This document shows, piece after piece, positions 4,918-27,172 of a stretch of DNA of 32,439 bases (its first letter is position 1; each line of letters opens with the position of its first letter). Source of the DNA: a virus; the IMG/VR virus record IMGVR_UViG_3300013101_000052, positions 1 through 32,439 of that record. One strand, written 5' to 3'. The notes beneath the pieces are model-generated. The model searched no databases and had not been told where the DNA came from. It saw only the letters and a list, made by a program, of their open reading frames with translations. Both the position numbers and the translations under genes were made by a program.

Positions 4918-5988
4918 TTAATACCTCGCAAGTTCTTGAGCATGTTTCTTGACCCATGCTTTTACTGCTTGGGAGTCGAGCATGCGGGTGTCTTTGGCAA
5001 TAGCAGCACGAAGTACTATGCCTTGGAAATCAATCTCAAGACGATTAACAAACTTCATGAGGTCAGCTACATTGTCCAGACTCATATGGTGAGCTATCAG
5101 CCCTGCCATGGCATGCTGGAGACTGGGATCTCGGGATAGTGAAACAGCCATGGGATGATCAATGATCTGTTGAATGGTTGGAATTTTTTTATAAACCTTG
5201 GTAAATGCCCAGAACTCTCTACCCATACCCTCGCCTATTGTGCCGGCAAGGAGTGGGAGCTTATCGATAGGGATCTCTGTCCCAGGTAGTAAGGAAACTA
5301 TCTTACTGAGGAATTCCCAGGTACGGGGACAAGGAAAGGTGTGTTCATTATGGTTTGGGTCGAATTTGTGGATCGCATCAGGTTTAAAATTAATGAAAGA
5401 TTTTATACGATGATCAATATTATTATTATCTGCCCATTTCTTCCAAGCTTTGACACAAACTTTAATCTCAAGCCAGATTAACCTGGATTGCATTGCAGTA
5501 CCTACACGGTTCACAATTGCTTTATCTGTGCTGAGATTACCAGCGCTTATTACATGACATTTGGGGTGCATTTTGTACATGCCCACCATACGATCTAATA
5601 TTACTTTGTATGCTGCAGCCTGTACTGAGAGGGGAGCTGAGTTGAACTCATCTAATAGGACGAGCCAGCCTGCCATAACGTTACCGTTAGCATCCAAAGG
5701 AAGCGAATCGGTTTCGATAGGAAAGATGTCCATGGGCACATAACCTGCTTTAGCAGGAGCTTCAGTGCCATCCTGATTCAGTGCTCTTTGTAGGAAGGGG
5801 AACCCATTCAGATCGGACGGATCCATTTGACTTAATCGAATATCGATTAATTTCATATTGTGCTTTGCTGCAATGGATTTAGCCAAGGCAGACTTACCAA
5901 TACCAGGACTGGAGATCAAACTGGGTACCAGTCTGGCATTTAGAATGTTCATCGTTAAGGCTTCAGCTGAAGCCATTGTTATTTGCAT
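4918..5988 (-). CDS. MoxR-like AAA+ ATPase (N4 gp24 type)
   Basis: A 356-residue AAA+ ATPase. Visible elements are Walker A SSPGIGKSA (residues 26 to 34), Walker B with LLDEFN (111 to 116), and a sensor-1-like ISAGN (147 to 151) followed by an SRL arginine motif near 168 to 170. This layout matches MoxR/dynein-type ATPases. It is followed by a VWA protein, the usual MoxR partner, and the pair occurs in N4-like phages as gp24 and gp25. The first ATG (5988) has an AGGTG ribosome site about 6 nt upstream; an ATG five codons in lacks one. The 194-nt gap upstream holds a terminator and two further hairpins, so this gene probably begins a separately controlled transcript. Confidence 0.9.
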   Translation of the reverse strand: MQITMASAEALTMNILNARLVPSLISSPGIGKSALAKSIAAKHNMKLIDIRLSQMDPSDLNGFPFLQRALNQDGTEAPAKAGYVPMDIFPIETDSLPLDANGNVMAGWLVLLDEFNSAPLSVQAAAYKVILDRMVGMYKMHPKCHVISAGNLSTDKAIVNRVGTAMQSRLIWLEIKVCVKAWKKWADNNNIDHRIKSFINFKPDAIHKFDPNHNEHTFPCPRTWEFLSKIVSLLPGTEIPIDKLPLLAGTIGEGMGREFWAFTKVYKKIPTIQQIIDHPMAVSLSRDPSLQHAMAGLIAHHMSLDNVADLMKFVNRLEIDFQGIVLRAAIAKDTRMLDSQAVKAWVKKHAQELARY

Positions 5989-17208: not shown

Positions 17209-17924
17209 ATTTATTGAATGTCTTCAAGGATTTAAGTTACGGGGAGTTGCGTAATAACTCAATTGGCAATCTCATTCCAGATGATAATGAATCTGAGCCA
17301 GATCCTAAAGACTATGCCCAAATTCTCTCACATCTTAATCGAGGTTTAGACCGGTTATATGGGCGATTCTTTCTGGCATCTCAGGAAATTTACATTCAAC
17401 AGCAGGAAGCTGTTGAAACATACATATTAGATAGTCTATATGCCGAAAGTAATACAGCTTCTGTTATTCCCATAGAGGACAGATATATTGCTGATAGTGT
17501 GGCCAATCCGTTTCTTGATAATGTTCTCAAAATTGAAACTTGTTTTGATGAAGAAGGCAATCTGCTGTTTTTGAATGATGCAACTGAAGTATTATCCCTG
17601 TTTACTCCTACATTCAAATCGATTCAGATGCCATGGCCCAATGAGTTTAATGCGGTAGCTATACAGTACCGTGCGAAACACATACCGGTGGTGTGGACTG
17701 CAGGGATGGATGCAGAACTTGTTGAAGTGGCGGTACCTGACAGTTTATATGAAGCATTGTTGAATTTTATTGCTTATCGTGCATCACCTAAAATGGATGG
17801 TGGAGCTGAAGCAATGGCATACCTCGCACTTTATGAGCAAATCTGTAAACAAGTTGAGAAAGAGGGTCTGTATATACAGACTGAGCCTGGGAACTGGCGC
17901 TTTGATTGTCATGGTTGGGTCTGA
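17205..17924 (+). CDS. Head-tail connector-like structural protein (N4 gp67 position)
   Basis: A 239-residue protein, mixed alpha, with no membrane segment. It is coupled to TerL by ATGA and followed by tail appendage genes. In N4, gp67 lies next to TerL and forms the head-tail connector ring. Length and position agree with this. Sequence features compatible with an adaptor are a helical N-terminal half (residues 35 to 70) and a helical C-terminus with a conserved-looking MDGGAEAMAYLALYEQICKQ stretch. The role is assigned mainly by position. Confidence 0.7.
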   Translation: MNLLNVFKDLSYGELRNNSIGNLIPDDNESEPDPKDYAQILSHLNRGLDRLYGRFFLASQEIYIQQQEAVETYILDSLYAESNTASVIPIEDRYIADSVANPFLDNVLKIETCFDEEGNLLFLNDATEVLSLFTPTFKSIQMPWPNEFNAVAIQYRAKHIPVVWTAGMDAELVEVAVPDSLYEALLNFIAYRASPKMDGGAEAMAYLALYEQICKQVEKEGLYIQTEPGNWRFDCHGWV

Positions 17925-17926
17925 TA

Positions 17927-19891
17927 ATGAGAAATTTACGTAATAAAAATGCTCCTCCTTTAGCTGGATTGGTTCAGAACTTTATAGATACTGCTTATGA
18001 TGTTGTAAAAGCTGTATATGATAATCTGGACATTATTCTTGAAGTAGGTGCAGCGCTTGAAGCAGGTGATTTAGATAGTTTCCTTGCTGACACCGATATC
18101 GATACCCTTGCCAAACTAAATGCTATTGTTGCAGACGCCACATTAGGTAGTATAGAAACGCTTGCAACTGCTGCACAGGGTGCATTGGCTGATACAGCTA
18201 TTCAAGGCCCATTTGCTACGCAAGGTGAGGCTGAGGCTGGTACCGATAATACGCATGCTATGACAGCTCTTAGAGTTGCTCAAGCAATTGCTGTACAAAG
18301 TAGCAGTAGACAGGATAAGTACGATGCCACCGTAGACCCAACGACTACGGATGACAGCGATGCCGGTTATAGTGCCGGTTCAGTCTGGATCAATGTAACT
18401 GATTCAGAATCCTTCCGTTGCGCTGACCCTTCGGTTGGTGCAGCGGTTTGGATTAAAACAACTCTTACAGCAGATGAACTGGCAACAGTAGCTTTGACAG
18501 GTAATTCAGATGATCTGACAGAAGGTGTCACCAAACTATTGATGACTACTTTAGAACGGTCACGTCTTGCTGCTATGGAAGATGCTGCAACAGCAGATCA
18601 AACTGGTGCTGAAATTAAAGTAGCATATGAAGCTGAAGCAAACACCAATGCTTTCACAGACACTGAACAAACAAAACTTGGTTTAATTGAAGATAATGCA
18701 ACTGCAGATCAAACTAATACTGAAATAGCTACTGCATACAATACACAAACACCTGTAGTTTCTCAGGTAGATGCTGAAGCAGGTACATCTACTACAGCTG
18801 AACGTTGGACTCCTGAACGTGTATCACAAGCAATTGCTGCTTTAGCTGTTGGTGGTGGAGGAGTAACACCTGAAAATGTAGATCCAATTAATGTTACAGC
18901 TTTTTGGGATTTTAATACTGCAGCAGTAGGACAGGACTTAATTGATGAAGTTGGTGGTTATAAATATAAATGCAATAACGGTGATAATAAATTACCAGGA
19001 AAAATTGGTAATGGTGAAGAAGTTAATCCAACTGGTGGTAAAAATTATGAGTCAGCTGTTGGAAATACGCCAACAGGGGAAGTTGTTACAAGGGATATTG
19101 ATGATAATCCTTGGTCACATACATTTTGGTGGGAACCTCTTAGTATTACAGCAAATGCACATATTGAAGGTCATTGGCATGAAGGTGGTCCTGTAGCTAA
19201 TTTATATTGGCAAGTTGCTATAAATGCAGCTGGAAATGGTTTCCATTTTCGAGTAGGTAATGTAGCTGGAATAAAAGTTGCTGATACAGGAGATATTAGT
19301 CTTGTTGCTGATGGGACAATTTATTTTGTATCAATAACACATAATCCTGTTTTAGATATAATAACAATAGCTGTCAATGCAGCAACACCAAGTTCAACTG
19401 CAATTGTTGGAGGAAATAATGCTACAGGAGATCTTACTCGTGGATTAGGTAAACCATTAATTGGTGGTATTCATGGACATGGTGTTATGAGTTTATGTGC
19501 ATATTATGACATTGCACTTACTACAGGACAAGAAGCTTATATTTTTAATTCTGATTTAGGTAGACTTTATACTGATTATTCTCAACCTTACGATGGCTCA
19601 TCAAATACAAGTAAGAAGCTTACAGGCACAACCCACACTATTGATATTACGGATAATGGTTATGAGTTGATCTTCACAAATGCTGCAGCTATTGCTGTGA
19701 CACTCCCTGATGGGTTACCTGAGGATTTCCATTGCGTCATCACTCAGACCACAGCAGCAGGTATCCCAACAGTTACCCCTGCCACAGATACTATTAATGG
19801 GGCTGGTACCGGTGTAGCTCCTTCAGCTCAGTGGGAGGGCATCCATATTGGCAAGTTCTCTGCTACTGAATGGATTGCGAAGGGAACCTGA
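17927..19891 (+). CDS. Tail appendage/fibre protein with LamG-like domain
   Basis: A 654-residue protein. The ATG at 17927 lies 2 nt after the previous stop; an ATG at 17906 in frame is an alternative. The N-terminal 110 residues are a helical, virion-binding type region. They are followed by tail-fibre repeats of 37 residues (ATADQTGAEI... then ATADQTNTEI...) near residues 220 to 290. A concanavalin/LamG-like jelly-roll is likely from about 318 to 555, and a beta-rich end domain follows. Such a layout fits receptor binding by N4-type appendages (gp66). The LamG part is markedly AT-richer than both ends, suggesting domain exchange. Confidence 0.75.
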   Translation: MRNLRNKNAPPLAGLVQNFIDTAYDVVKAVYDNLDIILEVGAALEAGDLDSFLADTDIDTLAKLNAIVADATLGSIETLATAAQGALADTAIQGPFATQGEAEAGTDNTHAMTALRVAQAIAVQSSSRQDKYDATVDPTTTDDSDAGYSAGSVWINVTDSESFRCADPSVGAAVWIKTTLTADELATVALTGNSDDLTEGVTKLLMTTLERSRLAAMEDAATADQTGAEIKVAYEAEANTNAFTDTEQTKLGLIEDNATADQTNTEIATAYNTQTPVVSQVDAEAGTSTTAERWTPERVSQAIAALAVGGGGVTPENVDPINVTAFWDFNTAAVGQDLIDEVGGYKYKCNNGDNKLPGKIGNGEEVNPTGGKNYESAVGNTPTGEVVTRDIDDNPWSHTFWWEPLSITANAHIEGHWHEGGPVANLYWQVAINAAGNGFHFRVGNVAGIKVADTGDISLVADGTIYFVSITHNPVLDIITIAVNAATPSSTAIVGGNNATGDLTRGLGKPLIGGIHGHGVMSLCAYYDIALTTGQEAYIFNSDLGRLYTDYSQPYDGSSNTSKKLTGTTHTIDITDNGYELIFTNAAAIAVTLPDGLPEDFHCVITQTTAAGIPTVTPATDTINGAGTGVAPSAQWEGIHIGKFSATEWIAKGT

Positions 19892-20721
19892 TGAGACTTG
19901 GATTAAATAGACAAGGAGTTATTTCTGGTGCTGGTGAAGCACCCTATGAAGTATCTGCTATTAAAGTAGAAACACCCAATAATTTAGGTGGCTTCCATCA
20001 AACTAATGGTAGTGGGGATTGGTTATCAGGTGTAAGTTTAAATGATGGATTTACATATCACTGTATGTTCAGAATGGGAGCGCATGCTAATAGTTATTCA
20101 CAAGGGGTATTGCTTGCATTTGGAGAGTATTCTAGTTCTTTCATAATTAAACATAATACTTCGAGTTGGAATAGTTATCTGAATGTTTATATACGTGACA
20201 CCAATGGTGTTTATGTATTAAACAGTGCTTGGAGCGCTGCAAATCCACAAGCAACTGCTAATTATTATGCTGGTATGACTATGAGCTGGAATCGAGCTAC
20301 GGCTCAATTTGATTGGTGGTTTTCTTATCACGATAAAGCAGAATTAAGTAGATCTCAGGCAACCGCTGCTTCAACAAATTTTGTATTCCCTGCTGATATG
20401 TACATTCCTTTTCATGGTAGTGCCCTCGGCCTTGACAACACCCAGCCTTTTGGTTGGGGTGCCATTTTTCATGAATTTTTTGATAATCAATATGTTGATT
20501 TATCTGTAGCTGCAAATAGGCGCAAATTTTGTGGAGATCAAGCAGAATGGGGAGTTGTAAATCCTGGTGCAGATGGTTCAGGATTTCTTGGCACACAACC
20601 TCTCTTCTTTTCTCATAATGGAGATCCACGGGAAAATGTAGGGAGCCTTACTGTAGATCCTTACACAGCCAACAATCCTGTAGTTGCTGACACTTCTAAT
20701 TTACCACCAGTGCTTGGATAA
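19891..20721 (+). CDS. Putative receptor-binding or tail protein, beta-sandwich
   Basis: A 276-residue protein. The ATG at 19891 overlaps the previous TGA (TGATG), so it is preferred to an upstream in-frame start at 19870. Trp-, Tyr- and Ser-rich segments with alternating strands (FTYHCMFRMGAH, SYLNVYIRDTNGVYVLNSAW, FDWWFSYHDKAEL) look like a concanavalin-like beta-sandwich. It follows directly the LamG-bearing appendage gene. Probably part of the host-recognition apparatus; carbohydrate binding is possible. No enzyme motif is visible. Confidence 0.65.
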   Translation: MRLGLNRQGVISGAGEAPYEVSAIKVETPNNLGGFHQTNGSGDWLSGVSLNDGFTYHCMFRMGAHANSYSQGVLLAFGEYSSSFIIKHNTSSWNSYLNVYIRDTNGVYVLNSAWSAANPQATANYYAGMTMSWNRATAQFDWWFSYHDKAELSRSQATAASTNFVFPADMYIPFHGSALGLDNTQPFGWGAIFHEFFDNQYVDLSVAANRRKFCGDQAEWGVVNPGADGSGFLGTQPLFFSHNGDPRENVGSLTVDPYTANNPVVADTSNLPPVLG

Positions 20722-20789
20722 TAAAGATTAACAATTAGATTTTTACAACATATTAATACATTATAGTATTTATATAAAAGGAGAATAGT

Positions 20790-21404
20790 ATGAGTACACG
20801 TTACGTTGAAGCATTACCACCAGGATATATTTATGAAGCTGAAGATATTTTTGAGAAACCATTTGGTCAACATGGAAATGAAACAGTTTATTTTGGTGAA
20901 AAAGATGCACATCCACCCGAAGTAAATCCTATTGAAATATGTGTACGTATTGTTGGTGCATTACATGTTGTAAATTCAGGTGCTTTTACAGCCTCAGATA
21001 GTGCAAATATGGGCGGTGATAGAGAACTCATTTTTGCTAAACATCCATTTGCTCAACACGGTGATGAAGGAATTATTCAACGTAGAGTATTTCTTGATGG
21101 GTCATCTGATCGCAATGTTGATACTTATACCAGTGCAGACGGTACAGACCCTACACCACCCAGAGATTCAAATGGTAATGTAGCACCCAGGCATGCTGAC
21201 TGGCATATACCTGCAGGACATATACGATACCTAACTCTCAGACGTATTAAAGAAAATCCTGATGGGACTTACTTTCCTTTTAAACTACAAAGTATTACTA
21301 CTGCTCCAGACGCAGATCAGGCATTACCTCCTGCTCCAATAGAAGAAGGTGTTGTACTTGAAATGACTATAATGGGTGTTAAAGGACAGTTTATTCCATA
21401 TTAA
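20790..21404 (+). CDS. Putative tail structural protein with repeated PFxQHGxE motif
   Basis: A 204-residue protein behind a strong AAAGGAG ribosome site. It contains two similar short motifs, KPFGQHGNE near residue 23 and HPFAQHGDE near residue 85, which suggests an internal duplication. A Thr/Pro-rich loop follows (about 118 to 130), then a beta-rich end. No family is recognised. Position among tail genes makes a virion role likely. The 68-nt gap upstream is AT-rich and holds an AATAC/GTATT stem but no convincing terminator. Confidence 0.6.
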   Translation: MSTRYVEALPPGYIYEAEDIFEKPFGQHGNETVYFGEKDAHPPEVNPIEICVRIVGALHVVNSGAFTASDSANMGGDRELIFAKHPFAQHGDEGIIQRRVFLDGSSDRNVDTYTSADGTDPTPPRDSNGNVAPRHADWHIPAGHIRYLTLRRIKENPDGTYFPFKLQSITTAPDADQALPPAPIEEGVVLEMTIMGVKGQFIPY

Positions 21405-21434
21405 GTTAATGACTGAAAATCATAGGATAAGTAA

Positions 21435-22025
21435 ATGACTCCAAGATTTGAATTAGACATGGAGCAAGGTGCAACCTTTAATTACACTTTTCATTGGTAT
21501 GCCGGCGGGAAGTTCATGGCTCCAATTGAGGAGATCATTGTTGGGTATCCAACGCGTATTAAAGTAACAGCACACGGTCTTCCAACAATATCAGATACAC
21601 CTGTAATCATTTCAGGTGTTGATGGTTGTGAGATTTTAAATAGTGAAGATCTTGGAATTGATGAAGCTATTTATGTAGATGCTGATCATTTTGATATGCC
21701 TCAAACTACTGTAGCTGATACTTGGATACCTGGTACAGGTGAAATTACATATCATAAGCCGTCTGATATCGTTGGATTTACTGCTCGTATGCATATACGA
21801 GAGAAATGGCACTCAAAAACATTTATTCATGAACTGACTACTGAAAATGGAGGCATCCTTTTAACAGTTGAAGATGCCAGTATTGAGTTAACTATTCTGC
21901 CTGTTGATACTGCATTATTTATATTTAACCAAGCTGTATATGATATTGAAATGATTTCAGCTGGTGGAGTAATTACCCGGGTTATTGAGGGCACAATTAC
22001 AAATCATAAAGAGGTCACAAAATGA
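21435..22025 (+). CDS. Phage structural protein with FCCH-like insert
   Basis: A 196-residue protein. The two ends together resemble a common phage tail module, with an N-terminal DMEQGATF stretch, then ARMHIREKW and YDIEMISAGGVITRVIEGTITN near the C-terminus. The middle (about residues 37 to 110) has the AHGL...SGVDGCEILN...DADHFDM pattern of the beta-domain inserted into many phage proteins and often labelled FCCH-like. Start has an AGGAT site; stop overlaps the next ATG (ATGA). A small tail or fibre-attachment role is likely; this rests on family resemblance. Confidence 0.6.
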   Translation: MTPRFELDMEQGATFNYTFHWYAGGKFMAPIEEIIVGYPTRIKVTAHGLPTISDTPVIISGVDGCEILNSEDLGIDEAIYVDADHFDMPQTTVADTWIPGTGEITYHKPSDIVGFTARMHIREKWHSKTFIHELTTENGGILLTVEDASIELTILPVDTALFIFNQAVYDIEMISAGGVITRVIEGTITNHKEVTK

Positions 22026-22564
22026 TTTATTTAAGACCAACTCCTTCATCAAGACCAGTTAAATATACTGAGACTATTGAGAAGGCTGGTCTTGTTGTAT
22101 CAGAAAAACATTCAATTGCTTTGTACACTTGCAAATCTGGAGCAAGACAAGGTCCAGTAGGGCCACCAGGTGAAGATGGAGAAGATCAAAATAGTTGGTA
22201 TGATTGTATTATTGCTGCTGTAACAGATAACTCTTCACCCATAGCAGTGGGTAGATTGGTAGAAACGTGGAGAGCACCATATGCTTTAGATCTCACATTA
22301 GGGTATATACGTTGTAGTCTTATTGATGCACCAACTGGTGCTGATTTTATTGTTGATGTGCACATGAATGGAGCAACTTTATTTAGTACCTTTCTACACG
22401 TAGATGCTGGTACAAAAACTACTGTTGGATCAGCTACACCTGCAGTACTCAGTGTTTTATATATTCCTGATGATGCTGAATTTGAGGTGTATGTAACACA
22501 GATTGGAACAATCATTGCAGGAGTTGGTTTAAAAGTATCTATAACTGGAATTAAAACTACCTAA
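22022..22564 (+). CDS. Tail protein with short collagen-like repeat
   Basis: A 180-residue protein. The N-terminal 40 residues are a possible attachment region. A four-triplet collagen-like run (GPVGPPGEDGED, residues 44 to 55) follows, then a beta-sandwich-like domain of about 120 residues. Collagen-like Gly-X-Y runs are common linkers in trimeric phage fibres. Start overlaps the upstream stop as ATGA and the stop overlaps the next ATG as TAATG. Probable minor fibre or spike component. Confidence 0.65.
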   Translation: MIYLRPTPSSRPVKYTETIEKAGLVVSEKHSIALYTCKSGARQGPVGPPGEDGEDQNSWYDCIIAAVTDNSSPIAVGRLVETWRAPYALDLTLGYIRCSLIDAPTGADFIVDVHMNGATLFSTFLHVDAGTKTTVGSATPAVLSVLYIPDDAEFEVYVTQIGTIIAGVGLKVSITGIKTT

Positions 22565-22989
22565 TGGCTGCAATTTATATACCGCCTTGGCCTTTAGCGG
22601 AGATATATACAACAACACTTTATCCAGTAGAAGTTGTAGATTCATTAGGGGTATCTGTAGTTTTTGAAAGTGGTGCAATGGCAATATTACCAGCATCTGA
22701 AGTTGCTACTGGACTTGGTTTGGAAAATGGTAGTTACACACAATTGCGTTGGTTTTATACAGATGGACCTTATGACAGTGATGTTGCTACCAGCATAAGT
22801 TTACATGATGGATCCTATACACAATTAAGATGGTTTTATGAAGATGGGCCATACGATAGTGAGGTTGGAACTTCTATCGCATTAATAAGTGGTTCTTTAA
22901 TTAATAAAATGGTGCATGCGGATACACCAGATGAAGAATTGCAATTATCAGCTGTAATATTGACATCTTGTTCAATGGATTTAATATGA
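22564..22989 (+). CDS. Small tail protein with two 27-residue repeats
   Basis: A 141-residue protein with a hydrophobic, Pro-rich N-terminus. Two adjacent 27-residue repeats (residues 56 to 82 and 83 to 109) each carry GSYTQLRWFY, DGPYDS and TSI. They are identical at 21 of 27 positions, yet 12 of those 21 residues use different codons, so the duplication is old and the protein sequence is under constraint. The repeat is Trp/Tyr-rich and beta-like, suitable for ligand or protein contact. Coupled to both neighbours (TAATG, ATGA). Confidence 0.65.
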   Translation: MAAIYIPPWPLAEIYTTTLYPVEVVDSLGVSVVFESGAMAILPASEVATGLGLENGSYTQLRWFYTDGPYDSDVATSISLHDGSYTQLRWFYEDGPYDSEVGTSIALISGSLINKMVHADTPDEELQLSAVILTSCSMDLI

Positions 22990-23975
22990 TTTATATACCT
23001 AAATACAAAGATATATATAGTAAAAACGATACACTTGGTATTGGTACACAAATACAAGGTGAATATCGAGTTACTCAACGTGGTGCAGATGGCCGTATTA
23101 AATACGAAACAGATTGGCTACCAAATACTATGTTGGATAATGGTTTGCAGCTTGCAAGATATAACTGGGGTGGTAATTGGTTATTGGAAATGCGATTAGG
23201 AGATTCTGATATTCCTGTAGATATTACTCAAACAGGATTGCAAGGTACTTATGCAGATAAAAGTGATAACGCAGCTGGCACATACGCATATGCCAATCAA
23301 GTTCCACCATATGAAAAAGTTACAATAAAAAGATTTACTTTTAATCCTGGAACAGCTACAGGAACGCATAAAGAATTTGTTATTGTTATGTCAACATTGG
23401 ATCACACTAATGCATGTATACGTGTTGTATTAGACGCGCCTATTATAAAAGGGGCTAGTGATTCATTAGATATTGAACACCGTTTAACTCTATATTATGA
23501 CCTTGTTGATAAAATAGGTGTTATTGATATCAGCGGTGTAGATTATGATTATGTATTACGCCATGGTCTTATTAAACATACTCCATATGGACATCCTGGT
23601 TCTTTAGCTCCTGCTTCAGGTGCGTATTGGTATGGTTGTAAAGTTGGAGCATCTGGTATTGGTACTATTGAAGAAGCTATACCTGGGCCTGAAACTGGTT
23701 CAGGAAATGCCGATAGTAATACTTTAACTGTTGGTGGTGTGCTAGGAACTTATTATGCGAATGCTGAATTGATTTGGGGAGTCACGAAAGCAAATGGCGA
23801 TATTGGTGCAATAGGATTTTCTTTAGCAGCAGGTGGAAGTGGTTATACAGGTGCTGGTCCAACTTACGCTAAATGTAGTTTAGCTAAGGTATCAGATGGA
23901 ACACCTTTAACTAAAGAATATACACATGAATTTAGAATAAATTTCCGTACATATCCACAAAGGTATGTCCCATGA
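22986..23975 (+). CDS. Putative tail protein A, paralogue of the next gene
   Basis: A 329-residue protein starting at the ATG that overlaps the upstream TGA. The N-terminal 90 residues (GEYRVTQR... DWLPNTMLDNG... NWLLEMRLG) match those of the next gene in pattern, showing a duplicated pair. The middle and end are beta-rich and Gly/Thr/Ser-rich. In N4-type phages this area encodes tail sheath and appendage proteins. No enzymatic motif is seen. Probable host-contact protein; the stop overlaps the next start as ATGA. Confidence 0.65.
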   Translation: MIYIPKYKDIYSKNDTLGIGTQIQGEYRVTQRGADGRIKYETDWLPNTMLDNGLQLARYNWGGNWLLEMRLGDSDIPVDITQTGLQGTYADKSDNAAGTYAYANQVPPYEKVTIKRFTFNPGTATGTHKEFVIVMSTLDHTNACIRVVLDAPIIKGASDSLDIEHRLTLYYDLVDKIGVIDISGVDYDYVLRHGLIKHTPYGHPGSLAPASGAYWYGCKVGASGIGTIEEAIPGPETGSGNADSNTLTVGGVLGTYYANAELIWGVTKANGDIGAIGFSLAAGGSGYTGAGPTYAKCSLAKVSDGTPLTKEYTHEFRINFRTYPQRYVP

Positions 23976-24913
23976 GTATTATTCAAACTGTTGGTTTAGA
24001 ATTTGGTATGAAAGGTTTCTTACGTTTGCGTACGCGTAATAAATTTAGTGGAAAAATTATACAAGATACTAACTGGTTTCCAAATACTATTTTGGACTCT
24101 GGACGTAATAATATGTCAGTAGAAGCCAACTGGTTACTCAGCTGTCAAGTTGGTACAGATGGTACAGCTCCAAGTCAATCAGACACAGCCTTATTAGGAC
24201 ATGTAGCAGGAACCAGTAATATTGTATCTGTTACATCTGGGAATGCACCAACTGCTCCTTATTACGGGTGGAAGCGATTAACATATCGCTTTGATGCAGG
24301 TACTGTAGCGGCTAATTTAAACGAAGCAGGTATTGGTTGGGGAGAAACAGGAAGTACGTTAATCTCCCGTGCCAGGATACTTGATCCTGTATTACAAATA
24401 CCTACTACTATTACTCCATTAATTGATGAATTATTGGAAGTACTTTATGAAATTCAATATTACCCTCCATTAGTAGATGTTGTGTTACCACAAGTAACTT
24501 TGGATGGTGTGGTGTATGACACAATTACCAGAGCTTCAGGTGTAACAGATCCTACTTGGTCAGCAAGCATTGGTCTGAAAATAGGTGTTGTAACTGATTA
24601 TCGTTATTGGGATGCTTGGGATGGTACTTTAGGTACAATTCTTCTTGCTCCAAATGGAAATTCTGCTGATTGTGATACATCAAATCAATATAATTCAAGC
24701 TATTCAAATAATTCATATGAACAACAAGTTAACTGTCCTGTTGGTTCACAAGGTTGGAATTTAGGTAGTGGAATACGTAGTGTACGTATTCGTACAACTG
24801 CAGGTGATTATCAAACGCAATTCACTGCAGCATCTGGTGGAGCTACAATACCCAAGTCAGTAGCGTATAACATGCTTATGTCTTGGAAATTAGCTTGGGT
24901 TGAAAAAGTATAA
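23972..24913 (+). CDS. Putative tail protein B, paralogue of the previous gene
   Basis: A 313-residue protein with the same N-terminal pattern as its upstream neighbour (GFLRLRTR... NWFPNTILDSG... NWLLSCQVG), then a divergent, beta-rich C-terminal region rich in Tyr, Asn and Ser (for example NQYNSSYSNNSYEQQ near residues 239 to 253). The conserved front with variable rear suggests a shared attachment domain and distinct receptor-contact domains. Start overlaps by ATGA and stop by TAATG. No family name can be given from the sequence alone. Confidence 0.65.
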   Translation: MSIIQTVGLEFGMKGFLRLRTRNKFSGKIIQDTNWFPNTILDSGRNNMSVEANWLLSCQVGTDGTAPSQSDTALLGHVAGTSNIVSVTSGNAPTAPYYGWKRLTYRFDAGTVAANLNEAGIGWGETGSTLISRARILDPVLQIPTTITPLIDELLEVLYEIQYYPPLVDVVLPQVTLDGVVYDTITRASGVTDPTWSASIGLKIGVVTDYRYWDAWDGTLGTILLAPNGNSADCDTSNQYNSSYSNNSYEQQVNCPVGSQGWNLGSGIRSVRIRTTAGDYQTQFTAASGGATIPKSVAYNMLMSWKLAWVEKV

Positions 24914-25518
24914 TGGCAATTCCACAGGGTCGATTATCAACAGTAGTAGTAGAAGGTGAATATTTACCACCAGAAGGATTACGTAAACATCCTGTAACTA
25001 CATTTGAGAAAGGTCCATTAGCTATTGAAGATACAACAAAAGGATTGTTGTATCAAAATTGGATGTTAACCTGGAATCCTAATAATGATGATTTCACAGT
25101 TACCCCTGAAGATACTGGGTCACCTGTTGTAATTTTAAATGTAGCTGATATTAAATTTGCTTCATTTACATTTGATCAATCAGCCAGAATAACTGTGTCA
25201 TATAGTACTTCTGTATCTTCATATTTATATTGGTACGACACACAGGTCGCTCAAACTGTAACTACAGATCTTGGAGCAGATATTTTTAGTCCATGTATTT
25301 ATTTAGATGATAAGCGTTCTACACAAAATGTTGTGAATGATATGCTGCTTTGGTACACACGTTCAGATGGAGCTGATAAATATAAACTATTTATGAAACG
25401 TCAAAGAGATCGTTTTGGTATAGAAACTGAAATGGCAGCAGATATGGAAGCTAATTTTATTGTTGCCTTGGGCATGACAGATGAACTTCGTATTCAATTA
25501 CACTTGAAAAGTATATGA
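24913..25518 (+). CDS. Hypothetical tail structural protein
   Basis: A 201-residue beta-rich protein with an N-terminal QGRLSTVVVEGEYLPPEG segment, a central Tyr/Trp-rich stretch (SSYLYWYDTQ near residues 102 to 111) and a charged end (LFMKRQRDRFGIETEM). Start overlaps the preceding stop (TAATG) and the TGA overlaps the endolysin start (ATGA). It is the last gene of the AT-rich tail group before the lysis cassette. Probable virion protein; no family name given. Confidence 0.6.
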   Translation: MAIPQGRLSTVVVEGEYLPPEGLRKHPVTTFEKGPLAIEDTTKGLLYQNWMLTWNPNNDDFTVTPEDTGSPVVILNVADIKFASFTFDQSARITVSYSTSVSSYLYWYDTQVAQTVTTDLGADIFSPCIYLDDKRSTQNVVNDMLLWYTRSDGADKYKLFMKRQRDRFGIETEMAADMEANFIVALGMTDELRIQLHLKSI

Positions 25519-25856
25519 CTTTAGGCCAAAAACAAGAAGCATTTTCCAGGGCAATACCTTTACTTTATTTGTATGCCCAGTATCATGGTTATCAAATACG
25601 TACAGGTGATGCTTTTCGTGATCCACGATTGCATGGTGAAATAGGTGAAAAAGAAGGTTATGGGCATAAAGATAGTTGTCATAAACTTAAATTAGCGATT
25701 GACTGTAATATCACTAAAAACGATTATTATTTACAAGGTGCTGCAGCAAAAGAAGCACATAATTTTTTACATGATTTCTGGGATATGTTAAATGGATCAA
25801 AACGTATTCCACATGATTTAAACCATTACAGTTTTGAACATCAAGGAATGAGGTAA
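25515..25856 (+). CDS. M15-type endolysin (L-Ala-D-Glu peptidase-like)
   Basis: A 113-residue protein with the metal-site pattern of M15 peptidases: SCHKLKLAIDCN gives His56 and Asp63 in the S-x-H-x(6)-D arrangement, and DLNHYSFEH near the C-terminus supplies the third ligand (His104, or His109) and a possible catalytic Glu108. GDAFRDPRLHGEIG (residues 31 to 44) is the usual front loop. T5-type endolysins cut peptidoglycan stem peptides with this fold. No signal peptide, so it needs a holin to reach the cell wall. It is coupled by ATGA to the tail gene and by TAATG to the membrane protein behind it. Confidence 0.85.
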   Translation: MTLGQKQEAFSRAIPLLYLYAQYHGYQIRTGDAFRDPRLHGEIGEKEGYGHKDSCHKLKLAIDCNITKNDYYLQGAAAKEAHNFLHDFWDMLNGSKRIPHDLNHYSFEHQGMR

Positions 25857-26239
25857 TGGCAATATCAACTGCAATGAAGAACACGCTTTATACCGTATTG
25901 GCAGCGGTGCTGATTAGTATACTTGGCGCCACAGCAACCGGGCTGGTCAAGGCACAGGCTGCGCTTAGTCAATTGTCAGTTAATACTAGCGCTTTGTCCA
26001 TCAATACCCAAGCTATTAAGAATATCGGCACGGCCATGGAGCTGCGTGGCATTGACCGCATTATCGAAAGCAAGGAGCAGGAAATACGGGCCAATGAGGT
26101 CAAAATTGCCATCAACCCCGACAACATGGTGTTGATTGAGGTGTTGAATTCTCAAAGCGCCAAATTGGAAAAGGAAATTGAAGCGCAGAAAGCCATAAGG
26201 CTGTGCGTTACAGATCCCGTAAAAGAGGTGTGCAAATGA
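25856..26239 (+). CDS. Lysis-associated membrane protein (spanin-like or holin)
   Basis: A 127-residue protein with one N-terminal membrane helix (about residues 8 to 29, TLYTVLAAVLISILGATATG), then a long Ala/Glu/Lys helix likely to be coiled coil, ending in two Cys near the C-terminus (RLCVTDPVKEVCK). This topology suits an inner-membrane spanin or a single-pass holin. Placement between endolysin and lipoprotein genes supports lysis. Base composition turns visibly GC-richer here than in the tail genes before it. It overlaps both neighbours by TAATG and ATGA. Confidence 0.65.
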   Translation: MAISTAMKNTLYTVLAAVLISILGATATGLVKAQAALSQLSVNTSALSINTQAIKNIGTAMELRGIDRIIESKEQEIRANEVKIAINPDNMVLIEVLNSQSAKLEKEIEAQKAIRLCVTDPVKEVCK

Positions 26240-26814
26240 AATTCGTACTGGTTCATGGCTTTAACGTAAAGGATGGTGGCAGACATACAGTTGATATGCT
26301 GGCGCCATACATTATCAATGCGGGACATAAAGTAGATTTGGATGAAGGCGATTACGGCTTCTTCAATATCTGGATGGTTCGCTTTAGACGCTCCCGTACG
26401 CGACAGCGAGTACTCCACCGGTTGGCAAAAGCATTTGAGACAGCTGACGTGATTATTACACACAGTAATGGTGCAAATTTCACCACTCAAGCTCTGGATA
26501 TGATGGAAAAGGAGTTCAACAATAAAGTCCTGATTATTCATATTAGTCCAGCATTGGATAGAGATACTGAAATACCGAATGCTGTAAAAAATCAGTTGGT
26601 ATTATTCACACCTCATGACAAATATGTAAAATTATCCAGTTGGTTACTATTTCATCCTTGGGGCCGTATGGGCGCTAAAGGGTATAGTGGTAACGACAAC
26701 CGCAACCTGAACATGGAAGTGAAGGCAGTTAAAGGACATTCCGCTTGGTTTAAACTCGAGCATGTAGCTCGAACCTGGAAACGCTGTACTACTTTTATCG
26801 AAGGATTCAAATGA
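26236..26814 (+). CDS. Alpha/beta-hydrolase in the lysis cassette
   Basis: A 192-residue protein with an alpha/beta-hydrolase layout: FVLVHGFNVKDGG at residues 3 to 15 (oxyanion HG region), a nucleophile elbow THSNGAN with Ser77, an acidic FTPHDKYV with Asp128, and KGHSAWF with His168. These give a plausible Ser-Asp-His triad in the right order. Substrate is unknown; an esterase or lipase acting on membrane or cell-envelope lipids would fit the neighbourhood. The ATG at 26236 is chosen because it overlaps the upstream TGA (ATGA) and has a GAGGTG site; the frame reads upstream to 26203. Confidence 0.75.
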   Translation: MKFVLVHGFNVKDGGRHTVDMLAPYIINAGHKVDLDEGDYGFFNIWMVRFRRSRTRQRVLHRLAKAFETADVIITHSNGANFTTQALDMMEKEFNNKVLIIHISPALDRDTEIPNAVKNQLVLFTPHDKYVKLSSWLLFHPWGRMGAKGYSGNDNRNLNMEVKAVKGHSAWFKLEHVARTWKRCTTFIEGFK

Positions 26815-27107
26815 GCTTACTAAAACTAAATATTTTAATGTTATTTCTCATGGCTTTAATGTTTGGCTGTGCTACTGGTGTATCCACTTATGAGTACACT
26901 CACATGGCTGATGGTTCTACACATGTGGAAGTTAAAAGCGCCAACGAAATTGAACAGATGGAAATGGGGATCAACCGCGAAACAGGTACTCTTGAAGTCA
27001 AAATTGGGGGTATGACCAAGAATAGCGACACTGTTGAAGTTGTTGGCAGTGTTGAAAGGATGATCCACGACGTATCAGCCATTGCCAAGCCCGGTAGTGG
27101 CGGATAG
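26811..27107 (+). CDS. Lipoprotein, outer-membrane spanin candidate
   Basis: A 98-residue protein with a signal sequence (about residues 1 to 19, KLNILMLFLMALMFGC) and a lipobox at LMFGC, with Cys20 as the lipidated residue. The mature part is short, polar and beta-like. The size, the lipobox and the neighbouring N-terminal membrane protein match a two-component spanin pair, but the classic Pro-rich segment is missing, so another lysis or envelope lipoprotein is possible. The start overlaps the hydrolase stop by ATGA. It is the last gene before a strong terminator. Confidence 0.7.
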   Translation: MSLLKLNILMLFLMALMFGCATGVSTYEYTHMADGSTHVEVKSANEIEQMEMGINRETGTLEVKIGGMTKNSDTVEVVGSVERMIHDVSAIAKPGSGG

Positions 27108-27139: not shown

Positions 27140-27172
27140 GGGGGAGGGTACTCCTATTCCCTCCCCCTTTTT
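27140..27172 (+). terminator. Strong rho-independent terminator after the lysis cassette
   Basis: GGGGGAGGG (27140..27148) pairs perfectly with CCCTCCCCC (27159..27167) over a 10-nt loop, followed by five T (27168..27172). A 7-bp stem of GTGAACC and GGTTCAC lies just before it. It closes the tail and lysis transcript and separates it from the portal-scaffold-capsid unit. A TATACT (27180..27185) could serve as a -10 element for the next unit; the matching -35 (TTCCCT) is poor. Confidence 0.88.

Follow-up and report, generated by a model that had tools for sequence, protein, structure and literature searches.

An alpha/beta-hydrolase gene linked to lysis genes in an N4-like phage and in several otherwise different phages

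The virus record analysed here (the window, 32,439 bases in all) is a fragment of an N4-like phage in which an M15-type endolysin, a protein with one transmembrane (TM) segment, an alpha/beta-hydrolase and a lipoprotein are encoded as one tightly packed unit. The hydrolase belongs to a family that is rare, sporadic and unnamed, and its gene is lysis-linked in several otherwise different phages, where it may help to break the host envelope. From the conserved features and gene contexts described below, we give slightly less than an even chance to the reading that we favour, namely that the protein is a minimal serine esterase or lipase acting on an envelope lipid or ester at lysis.

The cassette and its phage

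A sequence-only reading of this DNA had proposed a lysis cassette at 25515-27107 in an N4-like phage, and both proposals are borne out. The Schitoviridae markers matched in the window are PHROGs for the portal, the N4-like RNA polymerase and the tape measure (the virion RNA polymerase gene may lie outside the fragment); the portal matches SU10_portal and PHROG 1216, other structural-protein PHROGs are matched too, and the closest named portals, that of Klebsiella phage Pylas (Schitoviridae) among them, are 53% identical. All four open reading frames of the cassette are present, on the + strand and with overlaps of 1-4 nt, with a series of tail-fibre genes on one side and the portal gene on the other; the proposed interval also holds an endolysin gene, which the earlier text had left unmentioned. 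The layout is as follows.

25515-25856, + strand: 113-aa endolysin of peptidase M15 type; annotated phage endolysins about 50% identical, weak Peptidase_M15_4 match
25856-26239, + strand: one-TM protein, 127 aa, TM segment from residue 13, long and probably helical C-terminal part; holin-like or i-spanin-like by architecture only
26236-26814, + strand: alpha/beta-hydrolase, 192 aa, by alignment and fold model; no TM segment or lipobox found
26811-27107, + strand: putative 98-aa lipoprotein with lipobox MFGC at residue 17; possible o-spanin
27140-27172, + strand: intrinsic terminator, 9-bp stem then five T; -20.6 kcal/mol, z -2.52

The terminator forms the end of the cassette, ahead of the portal gene; a general terminator scan missed this hairpin because its loop is longer than the scan permits. 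Promoter-like sites in the cassette region are at chance level. The 192 residues of the hydrolase are counted from the ATG at 26236, and the longest open reading frame begins at a GTG at 26203.

The product of 25515-25856 is homologous to phage M15 endolysins: it shares 50% identity over 99-100% of its length with annotated endolysins, including those of Vibrio and Aeromonas phages (318 phage records matched), and has a Peptidase_M15_4 match with an E-value of 0.039, under the Pfam cut-off. As the sequence-only reading had it, the hydrolase gene lies between those of a membrane protein, upstream, and a lipobox protein, downstream, with TM segments and lipoboxes called by a simple hydropathy and pattern scan. 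The description of the former as spanin-like draws on architecture (one TM segment at residue 13), no homology to known spanins having been found. Taken as a pair, the flanking products fit the spanin architecture (N-terminal TM segment plus helical part; small lipoprotein), and a holin or spanin identity for them is a guess from that architecture. The TM protein had no relative among 50,697 phage records, nor had the lipoprotein among the same number of named phage records; a weak relative of the lipoprotein (33% over 45 aa) is encoded downstream of the hydrolase in one IMG/VR contig, L002. The likeness to Rz/Rz1 and to the N4 spanins gp60 and gp60a, described as a one-TM protein and lipoprotein pair (PMC12642591), is that such a pair flanks the hydrolase in the window. 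The difference lies in the gene order: here the hydrolase gene separates the two, and in N4 the i-spanin gene contains the o-spanin gene within it.

A rare family with an invariant predicted triad

Of 50,697 named phages searched by tblastn, one, Shewanella phage S0112, encodes a family hydrolase (six further rows had E-values above 0.1). Together with the window and nine IMG/VR contigs this makes 11 distinct members after removal of duplicates, the count leaving out L004 (hydrolase identical to that of L005), L031 (an incomplete duplicate of L003 at 94% identity) and the repeat fetches L009, L013, L014, L016-L026, L028-L030 and L033-L037. No family member was found in plasmids, pattern scans of genome contigs gave 63 and 10 matches with 0 relatives among them, and extra viral scans from L007, L015 and L006 each found only the starting sequence. 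Two N4-like phages, Vibrio phage K479 and Klebsiella phage Pylas, have no annotated hydrolase at the corresponding place, and the gene is therefore not a general need of such phages.

The aligned members are 28-36% identical to the window protein and follow the pattern HGFNV...HSxG...D...WGxMG...HS. Invariant in 11 of 11 are V6-H7-G8-F9-N10-V11, H76-S77-x-G79, A106, V122, D128, W142-G143-x-M145-G146, G149 and H168-S169, which map to the window as follows for the main motifs.

26251-26274, + strand: VHGFNVKD motif, residues 6-13, at the end of strand 1, presumed oxyanion loop; residues 6-11 invariant in 11/11
26464-26466, + strand: Ser77 codon, in the nucleophile elbow HSNG, after strand 72-76 and before helix 79-90 in the model; H76, S77 and G79 invariant in 11/11
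26617-26619, + strand: Asp128 codon, triad acid, after strand 117-124 of the model; invariant in 11/11
26659-26673, + strand: WGxMG motif, residues 142-146, family signature; W142, G143, M145 and G146 invariant in 11/11
26737-26739, + strand: His168 codon, triad base; H168 and S169 invariant in 11/11

The Ser77-Asp128-His168 triad that had been put forward for the 192-residue protein is thus found in every aligned member, and the order of these residues along the fold model agrees with it. A chance open reading frame was rejected on the strength of the 11 aligned members, the conserved triad and a dN/dS of 0.18 (L003 versus L031, about 160 codons). A tail-spike deacetylase was likewise rejected, there being no tail or fibre domain on the hydrolase gene by Pfam or PHROGs. 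As a separate observation, a SASA-type carbohydrate esterase is encoded downstream of the hydrolase in L003, by a gene of its own.

No Pfam model scores the window hydrolase above its cut-off (DUF900 gives 13.8 bits versus a cut-off of 20.5), the cut-offs for DUF900, Ser_hydrolase and Hydrolase_4 being judged on the window protein alone, with E-values of 1e-4 or weaker for the other members. Similarly, no PHROG or NCBIfam model reaches an E-value of 0.1 with the window protein, and single other members give weak matches to these collections (best E 0.027 and 0.0029). Sequence searches of the PDB returned weak or unrelated matches only. The ten hydrolases scanned (all but that of L032) showed neither TM segment nor lipobox. 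Net charge is positive in 10 of 11 hydrolases (L032 is at -2), which is weak evidence of compatibility with anionic envelope surfaces.

An AlphaFold2 model built from nine sequences (pLDDT 84.3, pTM 0.86) shows the alternating beta/alpha core of the alpha/beta-hydrolase superfamily with serine, acid and histidine in order: Ser77 sits where a strand gives way to a helix, Asp128 follows the penultimate strand and His168 the last one. The best PDB match by Foldseek is 2qjw (E 2.4e-5), and in a second structural comparison the top matches are tied: esterase 1zoi (Z 15.3, rmsd 3.1, 163 aligned), Archaeoglobus fulgidus lipase 2zyi (Z 15.1, rmsd 2.7, 160 aligned) and Bacillus subtilis LipA 1i6w (Z 15.0, rmsd 2.6, 155 aligned). 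As modelled, the window protein is a small, lipase-shaped enzyme with a fold that does not reveal its substrate.

Linkage to lysis genes

The survey of relatives' cassettes that the sequence-only reading had recommended shows the hydrolase linked to lysis genes time and again, in phages of several different types. The neighbourhoods of the ten members other than the window are listed below.

L005: M15_3 endolysin directly upstream of the hydrolase, 4-nt overlap
L006: second gene upstream encodes an M15_3 endolysin
L007: second gene upstream encodes a phage lysozyme (GH24); the intervening gene is on the opposite strand
L032: 4-nt overlap with an M15-like gene immediately upstream (Pfam match under cut-off); immediately downstream, a TM protein called by eye
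S0112: 'putative endolysin' as next annotated gene (PHROG 3108, function-unknown class)
L002: DUF5675 gene upstream; lipoprotein-like gene downstream, missed by the lipobox pattern, with LPGC visible by eye
L003: DUF5675 gene upstream
L001 and L015: TM protein and lipoprotein genes directly upstream
L008: no lysis gene nearby, in an 8-kb fragment with 1.9 kb upstream

With the window counted, the neighbour is an endolysin by homology or annotation in 6/11, a DUF5675 protein in 2/11, a TM protein and lipoprotein only in 2/11, and none of these in 1/11. In L001, L003, L006 and L015 the gene immediately before the hydrolase encodes a TM protein or lipoprotein, and the TM protein of L015 has a weak match to an Rz-like spanin PHROG (E 0.006). 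The flanking TM proteins are mostly unrelated to one another across members; two of them, L005_TM86 and L007_TM83, fall under the TM threshold and are called by eye only.

The whole-record search for muralytic families covered 10 records for M15_3 (L032 excluded) and all 11 for GH24, M15_4 and Amidase_2. It detected such a domain in 5 of the 11 (window, G004, G005, G006 and G009), each time 12-831 nt from the hydrolase domain. If placement were uniform, the product of probabilities would be 7e-10, and 0 of 100,000 simulations were as close, in a test that is conditional on a domain having been found and that includes M15_4 matches under the cut-off (window and L032) and one record of only 14 kb. 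L001 and L015 contain none of the searched muralytic families anywhere in the record. A search with Glyco_hydro_19 was uninformative, giving 0 matches in the records and 0 in the controls. Ten members have an upstream gene on the same strand, and in all of them the hydrolase begins from 47 nt inside to 3 nt past the end of that gene, an arrangement consistent with translational coupling.

Several other genes in these neighbourhoods deserve mention in their own right. The DUF5675 genes (L002, 5493-6032; L003, 792-1214) lie beside the hydrolase in lysis-like cassettes, one of them weakly matches the Tlde1 domain, and DUF5675 may be a lysis enzyme. The lipoproteins encoded directly before the hydrolase in L001 (5569-5937) and L015 (7558-7989) are 42% identical, have a TDPKTG stretch in common and are candidates for a possible new type of o-spanin. 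In L007, the 228-aa gene between lysozyme and hydrolase (5227-5913, - strand) looks like a homing endonuclease by eye and has no meaningful Pfam match.

Comparison with known enzymes

Phage D29 gp12, which we take to be LysB, the mycolyl-arabinogalactan esterase (the record itself says endolysin), resembles the window hydrolase as a serine alpha/beta-hydrolase encoded in a lysis cassette, and the D29 order endolysin-holin-LysB-terminase parallels the order endolysin-TM protein-hydrolase-lipoprotein in the window. The two differ in length (254 versus 192 aa). LysB cuts the mycolate ester of mycolata, and in a Gram-negative host, such as the Shewanella on which S0112 grows, the substrate would need to be another. 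The mention of LysB in the sequence-only reading is apt as to gene context, which is alike; in sequence no relationship to D29 LysB was found. A simple LysB homologue was rejected: hhalign against D29 gp12, the one LysB sequence compared, gives a probability of 1.05 over 14 columns round the nucleophile. The absence of LysB among the 50 structure matches listed is no evidence of difference. LysB would be the closest functional analogue by likeness of gene context and perhaps of logic.

As minimal alpha/beta-hydrolases of similar size, Bacillus subtilis LipA (1i6w) and YdeN (1uxo; Z 14.3, rmsd 2.8, 160 aligned) are also alike, at 14-17% identity. LipA is lidless and secreted. The window hydrolase differs from this pair in its HGFNVKD and WGxMG motifs, in being phage-encoded and in having no secretion signal that was found. 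The only named relative in the same family, S0112 gene 060 (annotated alpha/beta hydrolase), is 30-32% identical to the window protein and belongs to a phage with siphovirus-type tail genes, not to an N4-like one. The S0112 paper names the hydrolase gene, beside the endolysin (PMC6893657). Apart from that gene name, our searches, most of them narrow, found no literature on an alpha/beta-hydrolase in the lysis cassette of a Gram-negative phage. LysB is described as the enzyme for the last lipid barrier: mycobacteriophages are credited with attacking the final lipid layer enzymatically by means of it, and the disruption of the Gram-negative outer membrane is ascribed mainly to spanins (PMC6116005). 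The window protein would be an accessory lysis enzyme of alpha/beta-hydrolase type, from a new sequence family and from outside the mycolata. If so, an enzymatic outer-membrane route would be added across an N4-like podovirus, a siphovirus-tailed Shewanella phage and other phage types, and the family would supply a candidate outer-membrane-active enzyme that is testable in the cultured phage S0112.

What the hydrolase may do

From the computed fold, conserved triad, operon structure and repeated lysis linkage, we infer late expression, release through holin lesions, a substrate and an effect on lysis along the following lines. The hydrolase would be translated together with the lysis genes and would accumulate in the cytoplasm. 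Since the ten hydrolases scanned carry neither TM segment nor lipobox, the simplest path would run from there to release with the endolysin at holin triggering; once the inner membrane is permeabilised, the hydrolase would be freed along with soluble endolysin, which resembles a route suggested for LysB to reach its target (PMC6116005). The freed enzyme would cut ester bonds of the envelope, most likely in membrane phospholipids or another outer-membrane lipid ester, and so help the endolysin and the flanking membrane proteins to complete lysis. The wider proposal, that lysis esterases of a new phage family let Gram-negative phages breach the outer membrane enzymatically, in parallel to LysB and with or in place of spanins, is possible and in our judgement somewhat unlikely.

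The sporadic occurrence of the gene, in 1 of 50,697 named phages and without an annotated counterpart in two N4-like relatives, is also what one might expect of an accessory 'moron' enzyme riding in a late-gene slot close to lysis and terminase genes while serving some purpose other than lysis, for instance excluding superinfecting phages, countering host defences or hydrolysing a small molecule of the host. L008, with no lysis neighbour, L007, with its insertion-like opposite-strand gene between lysozyme and hydrolase, and the shift in third-position GC (GC3) of the slot relative to the endolysin all lend themselves to that explanation. It accounts less well for muralytic genes being close in 5 of the 5 records with such a domain, with endolysin families that differ (M15, GH24), or for hydrolase start codons that overlap or abut the upstream gene where promoter-like sites are at chance level, and we hold it to be unlikely. 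In L005 and L032 the hydrolase gene overlaps an M15-type endolysin gene by 4 nt; this, and the DUF5675 neighbours with one weak Tlde1 match, could instead point towards the peptidoglycan, the hydrolase removing an ester (e.g., O-acetyl) or other bond that blocks the endolysin, or freeing a wall-linked polymer. Such a helper is rather improbable, given that the nearest folds are lipases and carboxylesterases and that in L001 and L015 the partners are TM protein and lipoprotein genes, with the searched muralytic families absent from the whole record.

There is, finally, the idea that the protein modulates lysis timing by binding or modifying some membrane component before the holin triggers. For such a role the place of the gene in the window, flanked by TM protein and lipoprotein genes, and its position directly after such genes in four other members would be fitting. 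The TM partners are, however, mostly unrelated to each other, and the strict conservation of the full triad points to catalysis and against this idea, to which we attach very little probability. An esterase or lipase that acts on the envelope at lysis is the reading that we continue to prefer.

Codon composition and gene history

GC3 is 17.5% in the endolysin gene and 55.5, 40.4 and 42.4% in the genes for the TM protein, hydrolase and lipoprotein, respectively, a jump suggesting that the endolysin and the three-gene block that follows it may have different origins. The low values extend over 17906-25856, comprising the fibre genes and the endolysin (14-23%), as compared to 33-56% for the terminase, the portal and the TM protein-hydrolase-lipoprotein block, and the fibre and endolysin stretch looks as if it had been exchanged as a unit. 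At 22968-24913 of the window, adjacent genes for proteins of 335 and 313 aa both match tail-fibre PHROG 4176, which suggests a tandem duplication.
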